A program made the position numbers and the translations under genes. A DNA stretch of 46,362 nucleotides from contig JAFYNQ010000116.1 of the NCBI GenBank assembly GCA_017548065.1, forward strand, positions 1 to 46,362, in the 5' to 3' direction. Numbering within the stretch: position 1 is the stretch's first letter; each line of letters begins with the position of its first letter. This document shows positions 25,253-36,697 of the stretch, piece by piece. This stretch comes from Oscillospiraceae bacterium (GTDB lineage Bacteria; Bacillota; Clostridia; Oscillospirales; Oscillospiraceae). The notes beneath the pieces were generated by a model that saw only the letters and a program-made list of their open reading frames with translations, had not been told where the DNA came from and did not search any database.

Positions 25253-25278
25253 TGACAAGTAAATTATATACCGCTTTC

Positions 25279-25358
25279 TGCGACTGACGGATAATGTGGA
25301 GCACCACGGAGGAACAGAGAGCGTTGGCGCAAGCCAATAAGCCGACCGTCTGGGCGCA
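25279..25358 (+). promoter_or_regulatory. ZTP (pfl) riboswitch aptamer
   Basis: Both conserved halves of the ZTP/ZMP-sensing RNA are present: GCGACTGACGGAT at about 25280-25292 with the GTGGAGCACCAC hairpin after it, and GCCGACCGTCTGGGCGC at 25341-25357. The class turns on folate and purine genes when ZMP/ZTP builds up because 10-formyl-THF is short. It sits directly before purE and the AICAR transformylase gene lies in the same operon, so ligand and target match. Confidence 0.93.
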
Positions 25359-25389
25359 TTTAGCTGTATAGGCTGAGTGCGCTCTTTTT
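25354..25389 (+). terminator. Riboswitch-controlled intrinsic terminator
   Basis: An 11-bp stem with three G-U pairs (25354-25364 with 25372-25382), a 7-base loop and TCTTTTT. Its 5' arm uses the last bases of the aptamer 3' strand (GCGC of CTGGGCGC), so ligand binding and terminator folding exclude each other: an ON switch. Confidence 0.88.
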
Positions 25390-25410: not shown

Positions 25411-25899
25411 ATGAAAAAAGTTGGTATCGTAATGGGTAGTGACAGTGATCTGCCGATCATTCAGAAGGGTGTAGACATGCTTCGTGCGTTGGATATTCCT
25501 TTTGAAGTTCATGTATACTCTGCCCACAGAACACCCGTTGAAGCTCGTGACTTTGCACTGAATGCAAGAGAGAACGGCTTTGGTGCGCTGATCTGCGCAG
25601 CAGGCATGGCAGCACACCTGGCAGGTGCTATTGCAGCTAATACAACTTTGCCGGTCATTGGTATTCCTTGTAAAGGCGGCATGATGGACGGCCTGGATGC
25701 ACTGCTTGCAACTGTGCAGATGCCTACCGGCATTCCTGTTGCAACTGTTGCCATCAACGGCGCTGCAAATGCCGCGCTGCTGGCTGCACAGATCATTGCA
25801 GTTGAAGATGCGGAGCTTGCTCGCAAGCTGGATGATAAGCGTAAAGCGGATGCTGCAGCTGTCCTGGCAAAGGATGCCGGCATTCTTGAAAGACTGTAA
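25411..25899 (+). CDS. purE: 5-(carboxyamino)imidazole ribonucleotide mutase PurE
   Basis: PurE supplies CAIR in step 6 of purine synthesis. The 162 residues show GSDSDLPI, the substrate motif SAHRTP and [16 protein letters not shown]. These are closer to class I PurE, which uses N5-CAIR made by PurK. No purK is in this operon, so it is made elsewhere or this enzyme carboxylates AIR directly. AAGGAGG precedes the ATG. First gene of the riboswitch operon. Confidence 0.95.
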
Positions 25900-25940: not shown

Positions 25941-26627
25941 ATGGAAAAGAAGCTTGTTTACACCGGTAAGACAAAGGACGTTTTTGCTCTTGAAAATGGT
26001 AATTATCTGCTGAAGTTTAAGGATGACTGCACCGGTAAGGATGGCGTGTTTGATCCCGGCGAAAACTCTGTTGGCCTGACCATTGAGGGTGTTGGCGACG
26101 TCAACCTGCGTATGTCCATTTATTTCTTTGAGAAGATCAATGCAGCTGGCATCAAGACTCATTTCGTAAACGCTGACCTGGAGAACACCACCATGGAAGT
26201 TCTGCCCGCAAAGGTCTTCGGCAAAGGTCTGGAAGTTATCTGCCGTTACAAGGCTGTTGGTTCTTTCTTCCGCCGTTATTCCGATTACTGCACCGAGGGT
26301 CAGGATCTGCCTGCTTACGTTGAGACCACCTTCAAGAACGACGAGAAGGGCGATCCGCTGGTTACCAAGGACGGCCTGGTTGATTTGGGCGTTATGACCG
26401 CTGAACAGTACGATGACCTGAAGGCTATGACCCAGGCAATCACCAAGATCGTTGCTGATGACCTGAAGGAAAAGGGTCTGGATATGTACGATATCAAGTT
26501 TGAGTTCGGCTACGATGCTGACGGCAAGGTGATGCTCATTGACGAGATCGCTTCCGGCAACATGCGTGTTTACAAGGATGGTCAGTATATTGATCCCATG
26601 ACCCTCAACAAGCTGTTTTTCGCTTAA
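25941..26627 (+). CDS. purC: SAICAR synthase
   Basis: PurC adds aspartate to CAIR with ATP. The 228 residues contain the N-terminal [11 protein letters not shown] loop and the conserved [34 protein letters not shown] and SGNMR motifs. Normal length; AAGGAG upstream. The following step, PurB, is not encoded in the operon. Confidence 0.96.
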
Positions 26628-26649
26628 TCACTAACTGAAGGAGAGTATC

Positions 26650-28074
26650 ATGGGAGGCTTTTTTGGTATAACATCCCGCACAGATTGCATGACCGATGTT
26701 TTCTTTGGCGTGGACTACCATTCTCATTTGGGTACACGTCGCGGCGGCATGGCTGCTTATGATGCCGAGATCGGTCTGCAAAGGGAGATTCACAATATTG
26801 AAAATTCTCCTTTTCGTACCAAATTTGAGCATGTTCTGGAGGAAATGAAGGGCAATGCAGCTATTGGCTGTATCAGCGATTCCGATCCTCAGCCCTTGCT
26901 CATCAGTTCCTGCATTGGCACGTTTGCCATCACTACTGTTGGTCTGATTAATAACTCCAAGCAGTTGATTGATCAGTATTTGTCCTTCAGCGGCGGCCAT
27001 TTTAATGCTATGACCGGCAGCAAGATCAACTCCACGGAATTGGTTGCAGCGCTGATCAGCCAGAAGAGCAGCTTTACCGAAGGTGTTCAGTTTGCACAGC
27101 GTGTAATTGACGGCACTGCAAATATTCTGATCTTGACCGATAGCGGTAAGCTGATCGCAGCTCGTGACCGTCTTGGCAGAATCCCGGTTCAGATCGGTAA
27201 AAATGATGACGGCTGGTGTGCATCCTTTGAACAATTTGCATACACAAAGCTGGGTTATGAGCACGTTAAGGAGCTTGGCCCCGGCGAAATCGTTGAGCTT
27301 ACACCTGACGGTATGACTCAGTTGGCCGCACCCGGCAAGGAAATGCGTATGTGCGCCTTCCTTTGGAGCTATTACGGCTATCCCACATCAATCTACGAGG
27401 GAATCAATGTTGAGGCAATGCGTTACCGTAATGGCGCAGAGATCGCAGACCGTGATATGTCCCAGGGTCGCTCTATGGAGATTGACTATGTTGGTGGCGT
27501 TCCTGATTCCGGTACGCCCCATGCCATCGGCTATGCTAACCGTACCGGCAAGGCCTTTGCACGTGCTTTTATTAAGTACACACCTACCTGGGCAAGAAGT
27601 TTCACACCTGCCCGCCAGACTGATCGGAACAAAATCGCCAAAATGAAGCAGATCCCCGTTCACGAACTGATCGTTGACAAGAATCTGCTCTTTGTGGACG
27701 ATTCCATTGTTCGTGGTACACAGCTTCGTGAAACCGTTGAGTTCCTCTATGAGAACGGTGCGAAATCTGTCCATATGCGCTCTGCATGTCCTCCCATCAT
27801 GTATGGCTGTAAGTATTTGAATTTCTCCAGAGCTACCAGTGATATGGAGCTCATTTCCCGCCAGTCCATTGTTGAACTGGAAGGTGAGGAAGGACTTAAG
27901 CATATTGAAGAGTATGCTGACGGTAATACTGAGCGTGGCAAGAAGATGCGCAAACTGATTTGCGATAAGTTTAAATTTGACTCTCTGGGATTCCAGACGA
28001 TTGAGGGTGTTATCAAAGCGATTGGTCTTGAGCCTTGTAAGCTTTGCACCTATTGCTGGAACGGAAAGGAATAA
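26650..28074 (+). CDS. purF: Amidophosphoribosyltransferase-like protein with altered glutaminase site
   Basis: PurF normally takes ammonia from glutamine and puts it on PRPP, the first purine step. The phosphoribosyltransferase half is intact: PRPP loop [14 protein letters not shown] at about 347-360, and C-terminal cysteine pair CKLCTYC, which suits the Fe-S ligands of Bacillus-type PurF. The N-terminal half is odd. The protein starts MGGFFG where active PurF has CGVFG after the start or propeptide, so the Cys1 nucleophile is Gly. The Asn-Gly glutamine loop reads VGLINN and the SDTE motif reads NSTE. The SD GAAGGAG lies just before this ATG, so no longer N terminus is hidden. It may use free ammonia, or another PurF exists elsewhere. 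474 residues. Confidence 0.88.
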
Positions 28075-28079
28075 AAGAT

Positions 28080-29129
28080 ATGTCTGAAAAGAGTTACTCT
28101 GCCAGTTATGCCGCTGCCGGTGTGGATATTACTGCCGGTTATCGTGCTGTTGAGCTGATGAAGAAGCATGTTGCCCGTACGCGCAATGCAGGCTGCCTGG
28201 ATGACGTTGGCGGCTTTGGCGGTTGCTTCGGTCTTCCTGTTGCAGGAATGGAAGAGCCCGTTCTGGTGTCCGGCACTGACGGTTGTGGCACAAAGGTTAA
28301 GCTTGCTATTTTGATGGACAAGCATGACACCATCGGTATTGACGCTGTTGCTATGTGCGTTAATGACATTATTTGCGTCGGCGCAAAGCCTCTGTTCTTC
28401 CTGGATTACATTGCCTGCGGCAAGAACATCCCTGAAAAGATCGCCGAGATCGTCGGTGGTGTTGCAGAAGGCTGCGTGCAGTCCGGTGCTGCTTTGATTG
28501 GCGGCGAGACTGCAGAACATCCCGGCATGATGCCCGTTGAAGAGTATGACCTGGCCGGTTTTGCTGTTGGTATCGTTGATAAGAAGAAGATTATTGATAA
28601 CACTAAGATGGCTGCAGGCGATGTTGTGATCGCACTGCCTTCCACCGGTATTCACTCCAATGGTTTCAGCCTTTGCCGTAAGGTATTCAACATTGATAAC
28701 AATGATCCTGCCCTCTATGAGCCTAAGGAAGAACTGGGCGGAAAGACTACTGCAGAGGCCCTTTTGGTTCCTACCCGTATCTATGTGAAGCCTGTTTTGG
28801 CTCTGCTGGAGAAGGTTAACGTGAAGGGTATCAGCCACATTACCGGCGGCGGTTTCTACGAGAATATTCCTCGTAGCATTCCCGATGGTCTTGGTGCGGT
28901 TATTGACCGCAGCGCTGTTAAGGTTCTGCCTATCTTTGATTTGATTGCAAAGACCGGCAATATTCCTGAGCGTGATATGTTCAATACTTACAACATGGGT
29001 GTCGGCATGAGCATCGTTGTTCCTGCAGAAGAGGTGGAAACAGCGATCGAGATCCTGAAGGCACACGGAGAAGATGCATACGTTATCGGTAAGATCGTTG
29101 CATCCGAAGAGAAGATCGTCATTGAATAA
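28080..29129 (+). CDS. purM: Phosphoribosylformylglycinamidine cyclo-ligase
   Basis: PurM closes the imidazole ring to give AIR. The 349 residues start [12 protein letters not shown] and show [35 protein letters not shown] and [12 protein letters not shown], all family marks. ATG 28080 follows AAAGGA near the end of purF. Usual length. Confidence 0.96.
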
Positions 29130-29142
29130 GAGGGGATAGACC

Positions 29143-29745
29143 ATGTCTAAAGCAAAAATTGCTGTGCTGGTCTCCGGCGGCGGCACAAATCTCCAGGCGT
29201 TGATTGATGCGCAAAATAGTGGAATTATTAACAATGGTGAGATCGTGTTGGTAATCTCCAACAATTCTTCTGCTTATGCGTTGGAGCGTGCAGCAAAGGC
29301 CGGAATCAAAAGCCTCGTGGTTTTGAAAAAGGAATGTGGCAGTCAGGCTGCTTTTGAGCAGAAGATCAAAGATGCGTTAACGGAAAATAATATTGATTTG
29401 ATCGTGCTTGCTGGCTTTATGTCCATCCTGAGCGAGGACTTTACAAATGATTACCCCGAACGGATCATCAATGTCCACCCGTCCTTGATCCCTTCTTTCT
29501 GCGGTGCCGGTTTTTACGGGCTGCGGGTACATGAGGAGGCACTGGCTTACGGTGTTAAAGTTACCGGCGCAACAGTGCATTTTGTCAATGAAATTCCCGA
29601 TGGCGGTAAGATCATTGCACAAAAAGCAGTGGAAATCCAGGAGGGGGACACCCCTGAAATTTTGCAAAAAAGAGTCATGGAGCAGGCAGAGTGGATTATT
29701 TTACCTGCCGCTGTTGAACTTGTCAGCAAGCAGATTGTTAGCTAG
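29143..29745 (+). CDS. purN: Phosphoribosylglycinamide formyltransferase
   Basis: PurN formylates GAR with 10-formyl-THF. The 200 residues show the N-terminal VLVSGGGTNLQAL, the catalytic NVHPSLIPSF (Asn and His) and, at the usual catalytic Asp, IPDGGKII in place of the common VDTGPII. SD GAGGGG lies upstream. The folate-independent enzyme PurT is not present. Confidence 0.95.
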   Translation: MSKAKIAVLVSGGGTNLQALIDAQNSGIINNGEIVLVISNNSSAYALERAAKAGIKSLVVLKKECGSQAAFEQKIKDALTENNIDLIVLAGFMSILSEDFTNDYPERIINVHPSLIPSFCGAGFYGLRVHEEALAYGVKVTGATVHFVNEIPDGGKIIAQKAVEIQEGDTPEILQKRVMEQAEWIILPAAVELVSKQIVS

Positions 29746-29759
29746 AGAGGAAAGTACTT

Positions 29760-30479
29760 ATGAATGTTTATGAAGTCGGTTCTTTGAGTGAAAAACTCTC
29801 CACAAATGCATATCCCGGTCGTGGTATCGTACTGGGTGTTTCTCCTGACGGTAAGAACGCCATTGCAGCCTATTTTATTATGGGCAGAAGCGTTAACAGC
29901 CGTAATCGTATCTTCGCACTGGAGTCTGACGGTATCCGTACAGAGGCACATGATCCCAGCTTGATGAAAGATCCTCACCTGATTATTTATCATCCCGTTC
30001 GCGAAGCTGGTTGTGGCCTGATCGTTACAAACGGTGATCAGACAGATACCATTTGGGAGTATCTTGCAAAGGGTGAGAACTGGGAAGCTGCACTGCGCTC
30101 AAGAATGTTTGAGGATGACGGCCCCAACTGGACACCTCGTATTTCCGGTCTGCTTGCACAGAATGGCAGCTACAAGATGTCTATCCTGAAGTCTGCCGAT
30201 GCAGAGGGAAGTGCGTGTGCACGTTTCTTCTATGAATACCCCGGCATCGCAGGTTTAGGTCATTTTATCCACACCTATGTTTGCGATGGCAATCCTGTGA
30301 TCCCTACTTTCCAGGGTGAGCCTGAGCGTGTGTCTATGGTCAACGATATTGATGAAATGACAAAGATGCTGTGGGAAAACCTGAATGCTGACAATAAGAT
30401 TTCCTTGTTCGTCCGTTACACCGATATCAAGACCGGTGAATTCCAGCAGCGTATTCTTAACAAGCACGAAGGAGACTGA
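29760..30479 (+). CDS. purO: IMP cyclohydrolase, PurO type
   Basis: A 239-residue protein of the archaeal-type IMP cyclohydrolase family (PurO; Pfam IMP_cyclohyd-like), which closes FAICAR to IMP. It starts with YPGRGIVLGVSPDG, as in PurO, and lacks any likeness to the N-terminal domain of bacterial PurH. It sits directly before the gene for the previous step, so together they replace bifunctional PurH. GAGAGGAAAG precedes the ATG. The role rests on family likeness plus context. Confidence 0.88.
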   Translation: MNVYEVGSLSEKLSTNAYPGRGIVLGVSPDGKNAIAAYFIMGRSVNSRNRIFALESDGIRTEAHDPSLMKDPHLIIYHPVREAGCGLIVTNGDQTDTIWEYLAKGENWEAALRSRMFEDDGPNWTPRISGLLAQNGSYKMSILKSADAEGSACARFFYEYPGIAGLGHFIHTYVCDGNPVIPTFQGEPERVSMVNDIDEMTKMLWENLNADNKISLFVRYTDIKTGEFQQRILNKHEGD

Positions 30480-30484
30480 TAAAC

Positions 30485-31669
30485 ATGAATGAGTTTGAAC
30501 TGAAATATGGTTGTAATCCCAACCAGAAGCCTGCCAAGCTGTATATGCATGACGGCAGTGATCTGCCCTTTACCATTTTGAACGGCAGACCCGGCTACAT
30601 CAACTTTATGGATGCGCTGAATTCCTGGCAGCTGGTTAAGGAACTGAAGGAAGCTACCGGCATGGTATGTGCAACTTCCTTTAAGCACGTTTCTCCCACT
30701 TCCGCAGCTGTCGGTAAGGTTCTGCCTGCTGATTTGAAGAAGGCTTGCTTTGTTGATGATATTGAAGGTCTGGATGAGAATCCCTTGGCTTGCGCTTACG
30801 CCCGTGCCCGTGGCACCGACCGTATGTGTTCCTTCGGCGACTGGGTTGCACTGTCTGATGTTTGTGATGCTATGACTGCATCTCTGATCGCACGTGAAGT
30901 TTCCGATGGTGTTATCGCTCCCGGTTACACCGATGAAGCACTGGCTATCCTGAAGACCAAGCGTAAGGGTAGTTACAATGTTGTTGCTATTGATCCTGAC
31001 TACGTCCCTGCAGAAGCAGAAAATAAGCAGGTCTTTGGCATTACATTCCAGCAGGGTCGTAACAATTTTAAGATTGGCGAAGAGCTTCTTACAAATATTG
31101 TTACCGAAAACAAGGACATTCCCCAGGATGCAAAGATTGACCTGATCGTCGCTTTGATCACCCTGAAGTATACTCAGTCCAATTCTGTTTGCTACGCTGT
31201 TGACGGTCAGGCAATCGGTGTCGGCGCCGGTCAGCAGAGCCGTATTCACTGCACTCGTCTTGCAGGCTCCAAGGCTGATACCTGGTTCCTGCGTCAGCAT
31301 CCCAAGACTCTGGCACTGCCTTTCCGTGAGGATCTGGGCCGTCCTAATCGTGACAATGTCATCGATGGTTATATTAACGGTAACGAAGAGGACGTTTGCG
31401 CAGAGGGCATCTGGCAGAACTACTTCACCCAGCAGCCCGAGCGTTTGACTGAAGAAGACAAGAAAGCATGGCTGGCTTCCCGTCAGAATGTTGCACTGGG
31501 TTCCGATGCATTCTTCCCCTTCAGTGACAATATCAAGCGTGCAGCAGCTTCCGGCGTTAAGTACATTGCAGAGCCCGGCGGCTCCATTCGTGATGACCTT
31601 GTCATTGAAGAGTGCAACAACCGTGGTATTGCCATGGCCTTTACCGGCATGCGTTTGTTCCACCACTAA
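30485..31669 (+). CDS. purH: Stand-alone AICAR transformylase
   Basis: A 394-residue protein equal to the transformylase part of PurH only; it formylates AICAR (ZMP) using 10-formyl-THF. The catalytic Lys-His motif appears in SFKHVSPTSAAVG, and the C-terminal DAFFPFSDNIKRAA and RDDLVIEECNNRGIAMAFTGMRLFHH match PurH ends. The MGS-like cyclohydrolase domain is missing; the neighbour purO supplies that step. This enzyme's substrate is the ligand family sensed by the operon's riboswitch. Confidence 0.94.
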   Translation: MNEFELKYGCNPNQKPAKLYMHDGSDLPFTILNGRPGYINFMDALNSWQLVKELKEATGMVCATSFKHVSPTSAAVGKVLPADLKKACFVDDIEGLDENPLACAYARARGTDRMCSFGDWVALSDVCDAMTASLIAREVSDGVIAPGYTDEALAILKTKRKGSYNVVAIDPDYVPAEAENKQVFGITFQQGRNNFKIGEELLTNIVTENKDIPQDAKIDLIVALITLKYTQSNSVCYAVDGQAIGVGAGQQSRIHCTRLAGSKADTWFLRQHPKTLALPFREDLGRPNRDNVIDGYINGNEEDVCAEGIWQNYFTQQPERLTEEDKKAWLASRQNVALGSDAFFPFSDNIKRAAASGVKYIAEPGGSIRDDLVIEECNNRGIAMAFTGMRLFHH

Positions 31670-31732: not shown

Positions 31733-32998
31733 ATGAATATTTTAGTAGTCGGAGGCGGCGGAAGAGAGCACGCCATTATTAAAAAGTTAAAAGAAAATTC
31801 TGCTATCAAGACCATTTACGCTCTGCCCGGTAACGGTGGTATGGCAAAGGATGCAACATGCGTTGACATTGCAGCCACCGATCTTGATGGTATTGTTAAT
31901 TTTGCAAAAGAGAACGCAATTGACTATGCAGTCGTGGCACCTGATGATCCGCTGGTGCTTGGCTGCGTGGACAGACTGAACGAAGTCGGCATTCCTTGCT
32001 TCGGTCCGAAAGCCAATGCTGCAATTATTGAAGGCAGTAAGGCTTTCTCCAAGGATCTCATGAAGAAATACAATATCCCCACCGCTTCTTATGAGATCTT
32101 CACAGAATTAGATAAGGCTTTGGAATACCTGAAGACAGCTCCGATTCCCACTGTTGTCAAGGCTGACGGTCTTGCATTGGGTAAGGGCGTTATCATAGCC
32201 CAGACCCGTGAGGAGGCTGTGGAAGCGGTCACTGATATGATGGCAAACGCAAAGTTCGGCAAGTCCGGCTCTACTGTTGTTATTGAAGAGTTCCTGACAG
32301 GCCCTGAGGTTTCTGTACTGGCATTTACTGACGGTAATGTTGTAAAGCCTATGGTTTCTTCCATGGATCATAAGAGGGCAGGGGACAATGATACCGGCCT
32401 CAACACCGGTGGTATGGGTACCATCGCACCCAATCCTTACTACACGGAAGATATCGCCAACGAGTGCATGGAGACCATTTTCATTCCTACCATTAATGCC
32501 ATGAACGCAGAGGGCAGAACTTTTAAAGGTTGCCTTTATTTTGGCTTGATGCTGACACCCAACGGTCCTAAGGTTATTGAGTATAACTGCCGCTTTGGCG
32601 ATCCTGAAACTCAGGTTGTGCTGCCCCTTTTGGAGAGTGACCTGCTCACCGTTATGCAGGCAACCACTAATGGCACGCTGGCTACCACAGATGTAAAATT
32701 TGCTGACAGACATGCATGCTGTGTCATCACCGCATCTGCCGGATATCCCGAAAGCTACAAAAAGGGCTTTGAGATCACCATGAGTGCAGAAGCAGAAGCA
32801 CATACATACGTTGCCGGCGCAAAGCTGCAGGATGGTCAGCTTCTTACCTCCGGTGGTCGTGTTACCGGAACAACCGCTGTAGCTGATTCTTTGGAGCAGG
32901 CAATTTCTGACGCCTACAAGTTGGCAAAAGAGGTTTGCTTTGAAGGCGCATACCGCAGAAGTGATATTGGTCAGCGTGGCCTGGCCGCATATAAATAA
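31733..32998 (+). CDS. purD: Phosphoribosylamine--glycine ligase
   Basis: PurD joins phosphoribosylamine and glycine with ATP, step 2. The 421 residues form an ATP-grasp enzyme: ILVVGGGGREHAI at the start, KADGLALGKGV, VIEEFLTGPEVSVLAF, NTGGMGTIAPNP and EYNCRFGDPETQ are all present. AAGGAG is upstream. Its substrate is unstable and comes from PurF, so the PurF variant described here must feed it. Confidence 0.96.
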   Translation: MNILVVGGGGREHAIIKKLKENSAIKTIYALPGNGGMAKDATCVDIAATDLDGIVNFAKENAIDYAVVAPDDPLVLGCVDRLNEVGIPCFGPKANAAIIEGSKAFSKDLMKKYNIPTASYEIFTELDKALEYLKTAPIPTVVKADGLALGKGVIIAQTREEAVEAVTDMMANAKFGKSGSTVVIEEFLTGPEVSVLAFTDGNVVKPMVSSMDHKRAGDNDTGLNTGGMGTIAPNPYYTEDIANECMETIFIPTINAMNAEGRTFKGCLYFGLMLTPNGPKVIEYNCRFGDPETQVVLPLLESDLLTVMQATTNGTLATTDVKFADRHACCVITASAGYPESYKKGFEITMSAEAEAHTYVAGAKLQDGQLLTSGGRVTGTTAVADSLEQAISDAYKLAKEVCFEGAYRRSDIGQRGLAAYK

Positions 32999-33013: not shown

Positions 33014-36000
33014 ATGGTCTATCGCGTATATGTAGAGAAAAAGCCCGGACAGACCCACGAAGCTGACGGTCTTTTGAAAGAGGTTAAAGACTTTCTGCAG
33101 ATAAAAGGTCTTGAAAGCGTTCGTCTTTTGAACCGTTATGATGTAGAAAAGATTGAAAAGTCCTTGTTTGATTATGCGGTTGGTACAGTCTTTTCTGAGC
33201 CGCAGGTTGATAATGTCTCTTATAATGTTCCTCAGGGACAGATCGTATTCGCTGTTGAGCCGCTGCCCGGTCAGTTTGACCAGCGTGCTGACTCTGCTGC
33301 ACAGTGTATTCAGATCCTCTCTCAGGGTGAGAGACCTTTGGTAAGAACCGCAAAGGTATATGTCCTTTCTGGCAATCTGTCCGAAGCCGATGTACAGGCA
33401 ATCAAGCACCATGTTATTAACCCCGTTGAGTCCCGTGAAGCCAGCCTTGCCGAGGCTGAAACATTGGAGATGGAGGTTACCGTTCCTGAGTCTGTGGCAA
33501 CTGTGGAAGGTTTTCTGGAACTGGACAGCGCAGGTCTTTCTGCTATGGTGAAGGATCTGGGTCTTGCTATGGATCTGGATGACATTACTTTCTGCCAGGC
33601 TTACTTCAAGTCTGAAAATCGTAATCCCACCATTACTGAGATTCGCATGATTGACACTTATTGGTCCGATCACTGCCGTCACACTACTTTCAATACCACA
33701 ATTGACAATGTTTCCTTTGAGGATGCTCTTCTGCAGAAGGCTTATGAGGACTACCTTGCCACCCGTAAGGAGCTGGGTCGCACCAAACCCATCAACTTGA
33801 TGGATATTGGCACACTGGCAGGCAGGTATCTGCGCAAGAACGGCATGCTGGAGAAGCTGTACGAGTCCGAAGAGATCAACGCATGTACTGTACGTATGAC
33901 TGTTACTGTGGATGGCGAGGAGCAGCCCTGGTTGCTTTTGTTTAAGAACGAGACCCATAACCATCCCACTGAAATTGAGCCCTTTGGCGGTGCTGCTACC
34001 TGTATCGGCGGTGCGATCCGTGATCCTTTGGCTAGCCGTGCATATGTGTACGCTGCTATGCGTGTCACCGGTGCTGCTGATCCTTTGAAGAGTGTAGGTG
34101 AGACTATTAAGGGTAAGCTGCCCCAGAGAAAGATCGTCACCACCGCTGCCGCCGGTTACTCCTCCTACGGTAACCAGATCGGTCTTGCAACCGGTATGGT
34201 TGATGAACTGTATCACCCCGGTTACGCTGCAAAGCGTATGGAGATCGGTGCTGTTATTGGTGCAGTTCACGAGGATCATTCCAAGCCTGACTTCCCTGCA
34301 CCCGGTGATAAGGTCATTCTTTTGGGTGGCAAGACCGGTCGTGACGGTTGCGGCGGCGCAACCGGCTCCTCAAAGAGCCATACTGTGGAATCATTGGCTT
34401 CCTGCGGCGCAGAAGTTCAGAAGGGTAATGCACCTGAAGAGAGAAAGCTTCAGAGACTGTTCCGTAACGGCGAAGCTGCTGTTATGATCAAACGCTGCAA
34501 TGACTTTGGTGCAGGCGGCGTTTCTGTTGCCATCGGCGAGCTGGCTGACGGCCTGATTATTGAGCTGAATAAGGTTCCCAAGAAGTACGAGGGCCTTGAC
34601 GGTACAGAACTGGCTATTTCCGAGTCTCAGGAGCGTATGGCAATCGTTGTTGCAGAAAAGAATGTGGAGCGGTTCCTGGAACTGGCTGCGCAGGAAAACC
34701 TGGAGGCAACTGTTGTTGCTACTGTTACCGAAGAAGCTCGCCTGAAGATGATCTGGAACGGTCAAACAATCTGTGATATTAACAGAGAGTTCCTGAACTC
34801 CAACGGTGCTGAAAAGCATGTGGATGTAGAGCTGGCAGCACCTGCTGACTTTACTCCTGAGATCACCGGCACCTTCACAGAGAACATGACTCGTGTTGCT
34901 ACTGATCTGAATACTTGCTCTAAGCGTGGTCTTTCTGAGCGTTTTGACGCTACCATCGGCGCCGGTACTGTCCTGATGCCCTTCGGTGGCAAGCATCAGC
35001 AGACTCCCATCCAGGCAATGGTTCATAAAATCAGCCTTGAGAAGGGTCATACCGATGATTGTTCTGTAATGAGCTGGGGTTACAATCCCTTTATTACCGA
35101 GAAGAGTCCCTATCATGGTGCTTACCTTGCAGTTGTGGAATCTGCTGCTAAGCTGATTGCTACAGGCGCTTCTTTTGAAGATGTATACCTGACCTTCCAG
35201 GAGTATTTCCTCCGTGTCGGTAAGGATGCAAAGCGTTGGGGTCAGCCTACTGCTGCACTGCTTGGTGCTTTCAAGGCACAGATGGATCTGAAGATCGCTG
35301 CAATCGGCGGTAAGGACTCCATGTCCGGCACATTTGAGGATATTGATGTTCCTCCGACATTGGTTTCTTTCGCTGTTACCACCGATAAGATTCCCAACAT
35401 TGTTTCCAACGAGTTCAAGAAGGCCGGTTCTTCCGTTGTTCTTCTGCAGCCTGAATATGATGAGAACGGTTTGCCCAACGCAGAATCTCTGCTTGCACTG
35501 TTTAATCGTGTCACAAAGCTGATGCGCGAAGGCAAGGTGCTCTCTGCATACACTCCCACCATTGGCGGTATTGGTGAGGCTGTCCTGAAGATGTCTATCG
35601 GTAACGGTTTCGGCTTTGCATTCAATAGCAAACTGTCTGTTGAGGACATCTTTGGATATGCCTACGGCAGCTTCCTCCTTGAGGTTACCGAAGCTGTAGA
35701 CGGCATTGAGATCGGTACTGTAACTCAGGAACCTGCAGTTGTTTACGGCGAAGAGAAGCTTTCTATCTGCGACCTGCAGAAGGCCTACGAGGACAAGCTG
35801 GAGAGTGTTTATTCCTGCAACATCCCCGATGCTGTTACTCCCATTGAGACTGTTTCTACACCCGAAAAGGCTCGTGTAGCGCCTGCAGTTAAGGTCGCAA
35901 AGCCCAAGGTGCTGATTCCCGTATTCCCCGGTACAAACTGTGAATACGATTCCGCAAAGGCTGTTGCCGATGCCGGTGGTGATCCCGAGATCTTCGTTGT

Positions 36001-36697
36001 GAAGAATATGTCTGCAGATGCAATCGCACGTAGTGTTGAGGACTTTGCCGGCAAGATCGCACAATCCCAGATGATTTTCGTACCCGGCGGCTTCTCCGGC
36101 GGCGACGAGCCTGATGGTTCCGGTAAGTTCATTACTGCATTCTTCCGTAATGCGGCTATTAAGGAAGAGGTTACCAAGCTTTTGGAGAACCGTGACGGTC
36201 TGATGTGCGGTATCTGTAACGGCTTCCAGGCGCTTGTGAAGCTCGGACTCGTTCCTTACGGAAAGATTATTGACACCGATGAGAATTGTGCTACATTGAC
36301 ATTCAATGTCATTGGTCGCCACCAGAGCCGCATTGTGCGTACTCGCGTTGCTTCCAATAATTCTCCTTGGCTTGCAAATACCAAGGTTGGCGACGTTTAC
36401 AATGTTGCCATTTCCCACGGTGAGGGTCGCTTCTACTGCTCCGAAGAATTGGCACGTCAGCTGATCGCAAACGGTCAGGTCGCTACCCAGTATGTGGATC
36501 TGAATGGTGAGGCTACTGCTGATGTTCGTTTCAACCCCAATGGATCTATTTTCGCAATTGAGGGTATTACATCTCCTGATGGCCGTGTCTTCGGTAAGAT
36601 GGGTCACAGCGAGCGTATTGGTGAGGGTCTTTATAAGAACGTTCCCGGTAATTACGACATTCAGATGTTCAAGTCTGCTGTGGAATATTTCAAATAA
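33014..36697 (+). CDS. purL: Phosphoribosylformylglycinamidine synthase, large one-chain form
   Basis: PurL amidates FGAR using glutamine. At 1227 residues this is the fused type used by clostridia, with an N-terminal PurS-like part, a synthetase core (NHPTEIEPFGGAATCIGG near residue 317, and SHTVESLASCG), and a C-terminal glutaminase domain. There the nucleophile C1068 lies in GICNGFQ and a conserved His in SHGEGRF; the domain starts at FPGTNCEYDSAKA. So this glutaminase is intact, unlike that of PurF in the same operon. AAGGAGG precedes the ATG. Confidence 0.96.
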   Translation: MVYRVYVEKKPGQTHEADGLLKEVKDFLQIKGLESVRLLNRYDVEKIEKSLFDYAVGTVFSEPQVDNVSYNVPQGQIVFAVEPLPGQFDQRADSAAQCIQILSQGERPLVRTAKVYVLSGNLSEADVQAIKHHVINPVESREASLAEAETLEMEVTVPESVATVEGFLELDSAGLSAMVKDLGLAMDLDDITFCQAYFKSENRNPTITEIRMIDTYWSDHCRHTTFNTTIDNVSFEDALLQKAYEDYLATRKELGRTKPINLMDIGTLAGRYLRKNGMLEKLYESEEINACTVRMTVTVDGEEQPWLLLFKNETHNHPTEIEPFGGAATCIGGAIRDPLASRAYVYAAMRVTGAADPLKSVGETIKGKLPQRKIVTTAAAGYSSYGNQIGLATGMVDELYHPGYAAKRMEIGAVIGAVHEDHSKPDFPAPGDKVILLGGKTGRDGCGGATGSSKSHTVESLASCGAEVQKGNAPEERKLQRLFRNGEAAVMIKRCNDFGAGGVSVAIGELADGLIIELNKVPKKYEGLDGTELAISESQERMAIVVAEKNVERFLELAAQENLEATVVATVTEEARLKMIWNGQTICDINREFLNSNGAEKHVDVELAAPADFTPEITGTFTENMTRVATDLNTCSKRGLSERFDATIGAGTVLMPFGGKHQQTPIQAMVHKISLEKGHTDDCSVMSWGYNPFITEKSPYHGAYLAVVESAAKLIATGASFEDVYLTFQEYFLRVGKDAKRWGQPTAALLGAFKAQMDLKIAAIGGKDSMSGTFEDIDVPPTLVSFAVTTDKIPNIVSNEFKKAGSSVVLLQPEYDENGLPNAESLLALFNRVTKLMREGKVLSAYTPTIGGIGEAVLKMSIGNGFGFAFNSKLSVEDIFGYAYGSFLLEVTEAVDGIEIGTVTQEPAVVYGEEKLSICDLQKAYEDKLESVYSCNIPDAVTPIETVSTPEKARVAPAVKVAKPKVLIPVFPGTNCEYDSAKAVADAGGDPEIFVVKNMSADAIARSVEDFAGKIAQSQMIFVPGGFSGGDEPDGSGKFITAFFRNAAIKEEVTKLLENRDGLMCGICNGFQALVKLGLVPYGKIIDTDENCATLTFNVIGRHQSRIVRTRVASNNSPWLANTKVGDVYNVAISHGEGRFYCSEELARQLIANGQVATQYVDLNGEATADVRFNPNGSIFAIEGITSPDGRVFGKMGHSERIGEGLYKNVPGNYDIQMFKSAVEYFK

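Follow-up and report, generated by a model that had tools for sequence, protein, structure and literature searches.

In standard teaching, the committed step of purine synthesis depends on glutamine. The purF gene of the window, by which we mean the whole 46,362-nt stretch of Oscillospiraceae DNA that was analysed, encodes a protein lacking the cysteine nucleophile of PurF, and it is the sole purF of the window's purine operon, situated between purC and purM (Table 1). How, then, does such an operon begin purine synthesis? We propose, with a probability of about three in four, that this Cys-less PurF is an ammonia-dependent phosphoribosylamine synthase and the working first enzyme of the operon, the ammonia chemistry being what we infer from the residues lost and kept, the gene neighbourhoods and the distribution among genomes.

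Table 1. Features of the purine operon and of the Cys-less PurF (window positions)
Feature	Position	Strand	Basis
ZMP/ZTP riboswitch (pfl motif), head of purine operon	25270..25362	+	Rfam RF01750, 57.9 bits (gathering 39)
purE	25411..25899	+	Pfam AIRC
purC	25941..26627	+	Pfam SAICAR_synt
Shine-Dalgarno sequence GGAGAG of Cys-less purF	26640..26645	+	Sequence inspection
Cys-less purF, 474 aa, begins MGGFFG	26650..28074	+	TIGR01134 161.3 bits; 1ao0 E 1.4e-39
Degenerate class-II glutaminase domain, residues 1-229 (end at residue 229 set by the authors)	26650..27336	+	Pfam GATase_7, 27.9 bits vs 25
Cys235, first Fe-S ligand position	27352..27354	+	Cys in 132/132 variant and 40/40 PurF rows
PRPP-binding motif DDSIVRGT, residues 350-357	27697..27720	+	Alignment
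Cys387, second Fe-S ligand position	27808..27810	+	Alignment
Cys466 and Cys469, third and fourth Fe-S ligand positions	28045..28056	+	Alignment
purM	28080..29129	+	Pfam AIRS, AIRS_C; start 5 nt past purF stop
purN	29143..29745	+	Pfam Formyl_trans_N
IMP cyclohydrolase-like gene	29760..30479	+	Pfam PF07826
AICAR formyltransferase gene	30485..31669	+	Pfam PF01808
purD	31733..32998	+	Pfam GARS_N, GARS_A, GARS_C
purL, single polypeptide, C-terminal glutaminase domain, motif GICNGFQ	33014..36697	+	Pfam GATase_5, 273.4 bits

The initial annotation took the start of the gene to be fixed by its Shine-Dalgarno sequence, and an in-frame stop five codons upstream of the ATG bears this out. The same stop rules out a missed start or a propeptide hiding the cysteine, as does the family at large, where Cys at residue 2 occurs in none of 128 distinct relatives. 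That this is the only purF of the operon was likewise correct for the window. Only 22 bases separate the gene from purC and 5 from purM, so that no extra gene fits between the three. With the riboswitch lying ahead of purE, ZTP probably controls the operon that carries the Cys-less PurF. The PurL of the same operon keeps its glutaminase domain, including a motif cysteine that we take to be catalytic, and glutamine is therefore probably used later in the pathway.

Judged by score and residue content, the protein falls outside the PurF equivalog TIGR01134: its 161.3 bits do not reach the curated cut-off of 350, the Cys nucleophile is absent and the glutamine-binding residues are gone, and the PRPP motif and the Fe-S cysteines are present. 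The alignment with B. subtilis PurF called for by the initial annotation covers most of its length (1ao0, E 1.4e-39). It thus shares with canonical PurF (TIGR01134, EC 2.4.2.14, B. subtilis 1ao0/1gph) the two-domain layout, the PRPP motif, the loop Arg and Lys, the four Fe-S Cys positions and the operon slot, and differs from it in having neither Cys1 nor the glutamine-binding residues. A quick tree built from 45 variant rows and 40 ordinary ones sets the variants apart across a long branch (SH-aLRT 100).

To see which residues were lost and which kept, 132 variant rows (128 distinct, full-length) were aligned with 40 rows of ordinary clostridial PurF (39 distinct). Cys1 is present in 40/40 ordinary rows, which were retrieved with a pattern that itself demanded the cysteine, and in 0/132 variant rows; residue 2 of the 128 distinct variants is Gly in 127, Ser in one and Cys in none. 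The MGGFFG start reported for the window protein is thus real, and the Cys-less PurF is not a sporadic mutant; the loss is a family-wide state. Four further positions, which we take to be glutamine-binding residues of PurF, changed with it. Arg26, found in 40/40 ordinary rows, is Leu in 132/132 variants; Arg73 (39/40) lies in what is presumably the carboxylate-binding loop, deleted in 132/132 variants; Asn101 (40/40) is replaced by Val, Ile or Thr; and Asp127 (40/40) by Ser, Ala, Gln, Thr or rarer residues. This family-wide loss of binding positions supports the view in the initial annotation that glutamine use was lost. Its reading of VGLINN as a changed Asn-Gly loop was right in part, as Asn101 is lost and the Gly is retained.

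The other half of the protein shows the opposite pattern, and the earlier observation that the PRPP loop and the C-terminal cysteines are intact extends to the 132 variant rows. The D, D, S, R, G and T of the PRPP motif do not vary across the 132 variant and 40 PurF rows, and DDSIVRGT as a whole is kept among the variants save for one Val for Ile. Arg316 and Lys333 are kept in 132/132 variant rows and Arg326 in 130/132; the motif and these loop residues presumably bind PRPP as in PurF. At the four positions that we assume to be Fe-S ligands of the B. subtilis PurF type, Cys occurs in every row of both sets (128/128 distinct variants). Two copies of the variant are exceptional in other ways: that of G009 is partial, and the match in G372 (C70, 35816-37572) is split in two, which may reflect a broken gene or a misassembly.

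The degenerate N-terminal domain does not appear to be drifting freely. Of its 229 positions, 50 show conservation of at least 98% among the variants; some are common to ordinary PurF (e.g., N102) and others are invariant residues specific to the variant (e.g., D22-S25, L27, H48, P54-R56, D77 and N127). Compared with the two nearest relatives, its dN/dS is approximately 0.1, with dS near saturation, which suggests purifying selection; its dN is about twice that of the PRPP domain in these two nearest pairs. A decaying pseudogene was rejected for the family on this ratio, read with dS near saturation, and on the lack of internal stops in the printed rows. Since the domain has invariant residues of its own, it appears to do something that "dead glutaminase" does not explain. 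One might suppose that it works with another amide donor or another nucleophile, as a new invariant residue set stands in place of the old pocket and Gly2 is nearly invariant (127/128). We regard this as the least probable of the alternatives, with very little chance of being right, because the Arg73 loop, which presumably binds the carboxylate, is deleted and the cysteines at hand are not invariant: Cys74 occurs in 112/128 distinct variants, and Cys13, considered as a substitute nucleophile, was rejected for its presence in just 64/128.

A protein that lost glutamine binding, kept the PRPP site and replaces ordinary PurF genome-wide should be an ammonia-dependent synthase. According to one paper, which cites Mei and Zalkin, E. 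coli PurF without Cys1 is unable to use glutamine and still uses ammonia (PMC3261824). The Cys-less PurF would bind PRPP as ordinary PurF does, and free ammonia would attack the PRPP, the glutaminase site having been discarded. It would draw on abundant ammonia, and the ordinary glutamine-dependent PurF of relatives would be the low-ammonia version, kept together with GS-GOGAT and serving when ammonia is scarce.

The genome-wide replacement was assessed in two samples. In 196 genomes of the class, the variant occurs in 60 and ordinary PurF over cut-off in 153; 20 of the 60 carriers have no ordinary PurF over cut-off, one of which (G139) has an intermediate PurF match (4.9e-80). In 218 genomes of the order, the variant occurs in 125 and ordinary PurF over cut-off in 163, and the sample divides into 82 genomes with both, 43 with the variant alone (counting G340, which has a sub-cut-off PurF match of 1e-71 beside the variant), 81 with ordinary PurF alone and 12 with neither. 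The initial annotation guessed that such variants may be widespread, which these figures confirm. Many of the genomes compared are probably metagenome-assembled. Assembly gaps as the reason for the missing ordinary PurF are argued against by the completeness of 217 of the 218 genomes, given as at least 97%; the window's own genome (88.9% complete, 126 contigs) may be affected. A search of it for a second, canonical PurF, as had been advised, gave no other match near the family score at that 88.9% completeness. The genus of the window (G261, G344, G384 and G414) holds three states: Cys-less PurF alone, both forms together, and ordinary PurF alone, which then takes the same slot in the operon.

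Among named genomes, at least 596 stretches code for a Cys-less PurF relative. Judged by title, metagenome-assembled genomes make up most of the best 80 of these, with many from animal guts, and it is on these titles that the agreement with the suggested gut-anaerobe carriers rests. Isolates among the same best 80 of at least 596 include Evtepia gabavorous KLE1738, Flavonifractor sp. An112 and Frisingicoccus caecimuris DSM 28559. Of 12 named genomes searched, completeness not given, six, including E. gabavorous, lack an ordinary PurF over cut-off.

Gene neighbourhoods tie the variant to purine synthesis. Among the best 80 of the at least 596 named loci, several of them cut by contig ends, 75 contain purM, 71 purE and 6 ordinary PurF. 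Of the 43 variant-only genomes, 40 contributed a locus, and in 33/40 the variant lies with at least two pur genes; the loci devoid of any pur gene are L192 and six of a distant subfamily. Conversely, in the 20 loci fetched from the 81 canonical-only genomes, ordinary PurF fills the same operon slot in 12, one of them in the window's genus. As either PurF can fill this slot, the two genes appear to be mutually substitutable.

The same loci bear on the idea that the variant is a regulator or some other phosphoribosyltransferase, purines being made from phosphoribosylamine of non-enzymatic or side-reaction origin or obtained by salvage. PurF-independent formation of phosphoribosylamine, sometimes with ammonia, is described for Salmonella (PMC3485032), and one (G218) of 12 variant-only genomes tested has no purM match, purM being found in the other 11. 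Against this stand the occupation of the purF slot, the replacement of ordinary PurF beside other pur genes in the 33/40 loci, and the retention of the PurF PRPP motif, Arg316 and Lys333 in all rows, Arg326 in 130/132 and the Fe-S cysteines. We therefore hold a role other than synthase to be improbable, by a small degree less so than another amide donor or nucleophile.

In genomes with both genes, the ordinary PurF is often found elsewhere. Seventy-six of these have printed coordinates, with the two genes within 6 kb of each other in 23 and apart in 53. Setting the tandem pairs aside, 30 of the 53 separate ordinary PurF loci were fetched as stretches of 13-20 kb, a non-random choice from printed rows. 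Twenty-four of these 30 loci lie near GS, GOGAT, pyrG or asnB (19 with GS or GOGAT), and none has two or more core pur genes, as might in part be foreseen given that the variant often occupies the operon and tandem pairs had been excluded. A purC copy adjoins ordinary PurF in four of the 30 (L227, L233, L257 and L258). Among the canonical-only loci, ordinary PurF is near a member of the GS/GOGAT/pyrG/asnB set in 3/20. This set was chosen on the first 10 loci (9/10), so the fair test is on the remaining 20, where the contrast is 15/20 vs 3/20 (p = 3e-4), or 10/20 vs 3/20 for GS or GOGAT alone (p = 0.04). By family models, representatives of these neighbours are GlnA-like and type III glutamine synthetases, glutamate synthase domains, CTP synthase, asparagine synthase B and an ANTAR regulator; one that we labelled gltD is an oxidoreductase to which no clear name could be given. 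The ANTAR-type regulator gene, beside glutamine synthetase in L217, L221 and L229 (Pfam on the L229 copy), suggests antitermination control of this gene set.

Thirty variant loci from genomes with both genes were also fetched, taken from printed rows like all the fetched loci. Half of them (15) lie in the pur operon. The rest comprise 14 from the distant subfamily, a deliberate choice, and one (L295) that adjoins a GOGAT-type gene. In L286 the variant has a gltD-like neighbour. In the distant subfamily, which has 55-59% identity to the window protein, the majority of fetched loci are outside the pur operon, with no pur genes near the variant in L209-L214, L276-L281 and L283-L290. These loci, L295 and L286 included, weigh against the proposed reading.

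The initial annotation proposed that the enzyme may use either free ammonia or ammonia from a partner. Gene context and the absence of GOGAT from most variant-only genomes argue strongly for the former. For the latter, the variant would be a synthase subunit fed by ammonia channelling from a separate glutaminase, be it the tandem ordinary PurF, the PurL domain or another protein. The two PurF genes within 6 kb in 23 of 76 genomes, the conserved N-terminal domain that seems to be under purifying selection, and the PurL with its own glutaminase domain in the same operon would all suit such a complex. However, ordinary PurF over cut-off is missing from 43 carriers, and in 53 of the 76 genomes with both it lies away from the variant; the stretch from purC to purM has no room for another gene; and the absence of GOGAT is not what one would predict of a complex fed with glutamine. 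A candidate partner was sought in the window's own genome, which encodes three stand-alone glutaminase-like proteins of approximately 350 aa with an MCNIAGY start (L004, 745-2821; L005, 763-1815) that match the PurF model weakly; the one of the three that was scanned gave no Pfam match at 1e-8. This family was rejected as the partner, having a relative in just one other of the 218 genomes. We consider channelling unlikely, though the strongest of the alternatives.

GS-GOGAT is an ammonia-scavenging route and GDH a high-ammonia route. Were the Cys-less PurF ammonia-dependent and ordinary PurF in use when ammonia is scarce, ordinary PurF would be expected to track GOGAT among the carriers of the variant. 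A glutamate synthase (GOGAT) domain was found in 79/82 genomes with both, 63/81 with ordinary PurF alone, 4/43 with the variant alone and 2/12 with neither. For both vs variant-only, p = 3e-24, a value that takes genomes as independent though they are related, so that the comparison within families is the fairer view. There the contrast has the same direction in 7/7 families having both states (both vs variant-only: f1, 15/17 vs 1/6; f2, 1/1 vs 0/2; f3, 16/17 vs 0/8; f4, 18/18 vs 0/2; f5, 19/19 vs 0/1; f75, 2/2 vs 1/7; f76, 8/8 vs 1/14). G340 is one of the four variant-only genomes with GOGAT, and without it the count is 3/42.

Variant-only genomes are somewhat reduced, as seen with ilvC, the control for genome reduction (67/82 with both vs 19/43 variant-only), a weaker contrast than that of GOGAT. 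General genome reduction was rejected as the cause of the association, since among ilvC-positive genomes GOGAT is still present in 66/67 vs 1/19. GOGAT and ordinary PurF are sometimes neighbours, and part of their joint absence could be physical; linkage as the main cause was rejected because tandem PurF pairs keep GOGAT in 22/23. Nor is GOGAT required by ordinary PurF, which occurs without it in 18/81 canonical-only genomes. A GDH-family match was found in 124/125 carriers vs 84/93 non-carriers, the Pfam family also taking in related amino-acid dehydrogenases. The window's own genome has a GDH-family gene and neither ordinary PurF nor GOGAT, which fits the ammonia-type picture with the caveat of 88.9% completeness. 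Genome content points to the Cys-less PurF as a probable adaptation to guts rich in ammonia.

Paired enzymes that make the same product from ammonia or glutamine are familiar from AsnA and AsnB, which are unrelated to each other; here, in contrast, both types are PurF homologues. The closest precedent, as described by Brown et al. 2011 (PMC3261824), appears to be crenarchaeal PurF', a PurF homologue without Cys1 near pur genes, for which ammonia dependence was proposed and not shown. Each crenarchaeon studied there has one PurF' and one normal PurF, whereas 43/125 carriers of the bacterial variant have no ordinary PurF over cut-off; the likeness is drawn from that description and does not imply common descent. 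A literature search, outside which lay most subscription papers and bioRxiv preprints, found no account of a bacterial Cys-less PurF family.

A wider picture, to which we give somewhat better than even odds, is that a large ammonia-only bacterial PurF family makes the first purine step glutamine-free; that many gut Clostridia divide this step between a Cys-less PurF in the pur operon and a glutamine-dependent one located with GS, GOGAT and further genes linked to glutamine; that high-ammonia lineages lost GOGAT and glutamine-dependent PurF together several times; and that the old glutaminase domain, with its new invariant residues, may be an ammonia gate or a nitrogen-status sensor. If true, purine synthesis would be tied to ambient ammonia, and Cys-less PurF without GOGAT would be a genome marker for bacteria bound to ammonia-rich niches. 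Pathway reconstructions would also change, as variant-only genomes, which do not reach the PurF equivalog cut-off, could be scored as auxotrophs.

Two further observations concern the window itself. At 29760-31669, the final purine steps are seemingly split between an IMP cyclohydrolase-like gene and an AICAR formyltransferase gene instead of a single purH. Far upstream of the operon, the ORF at 183-935 resembles what we take to be a 2-phosphosulfolactate phosphatase.
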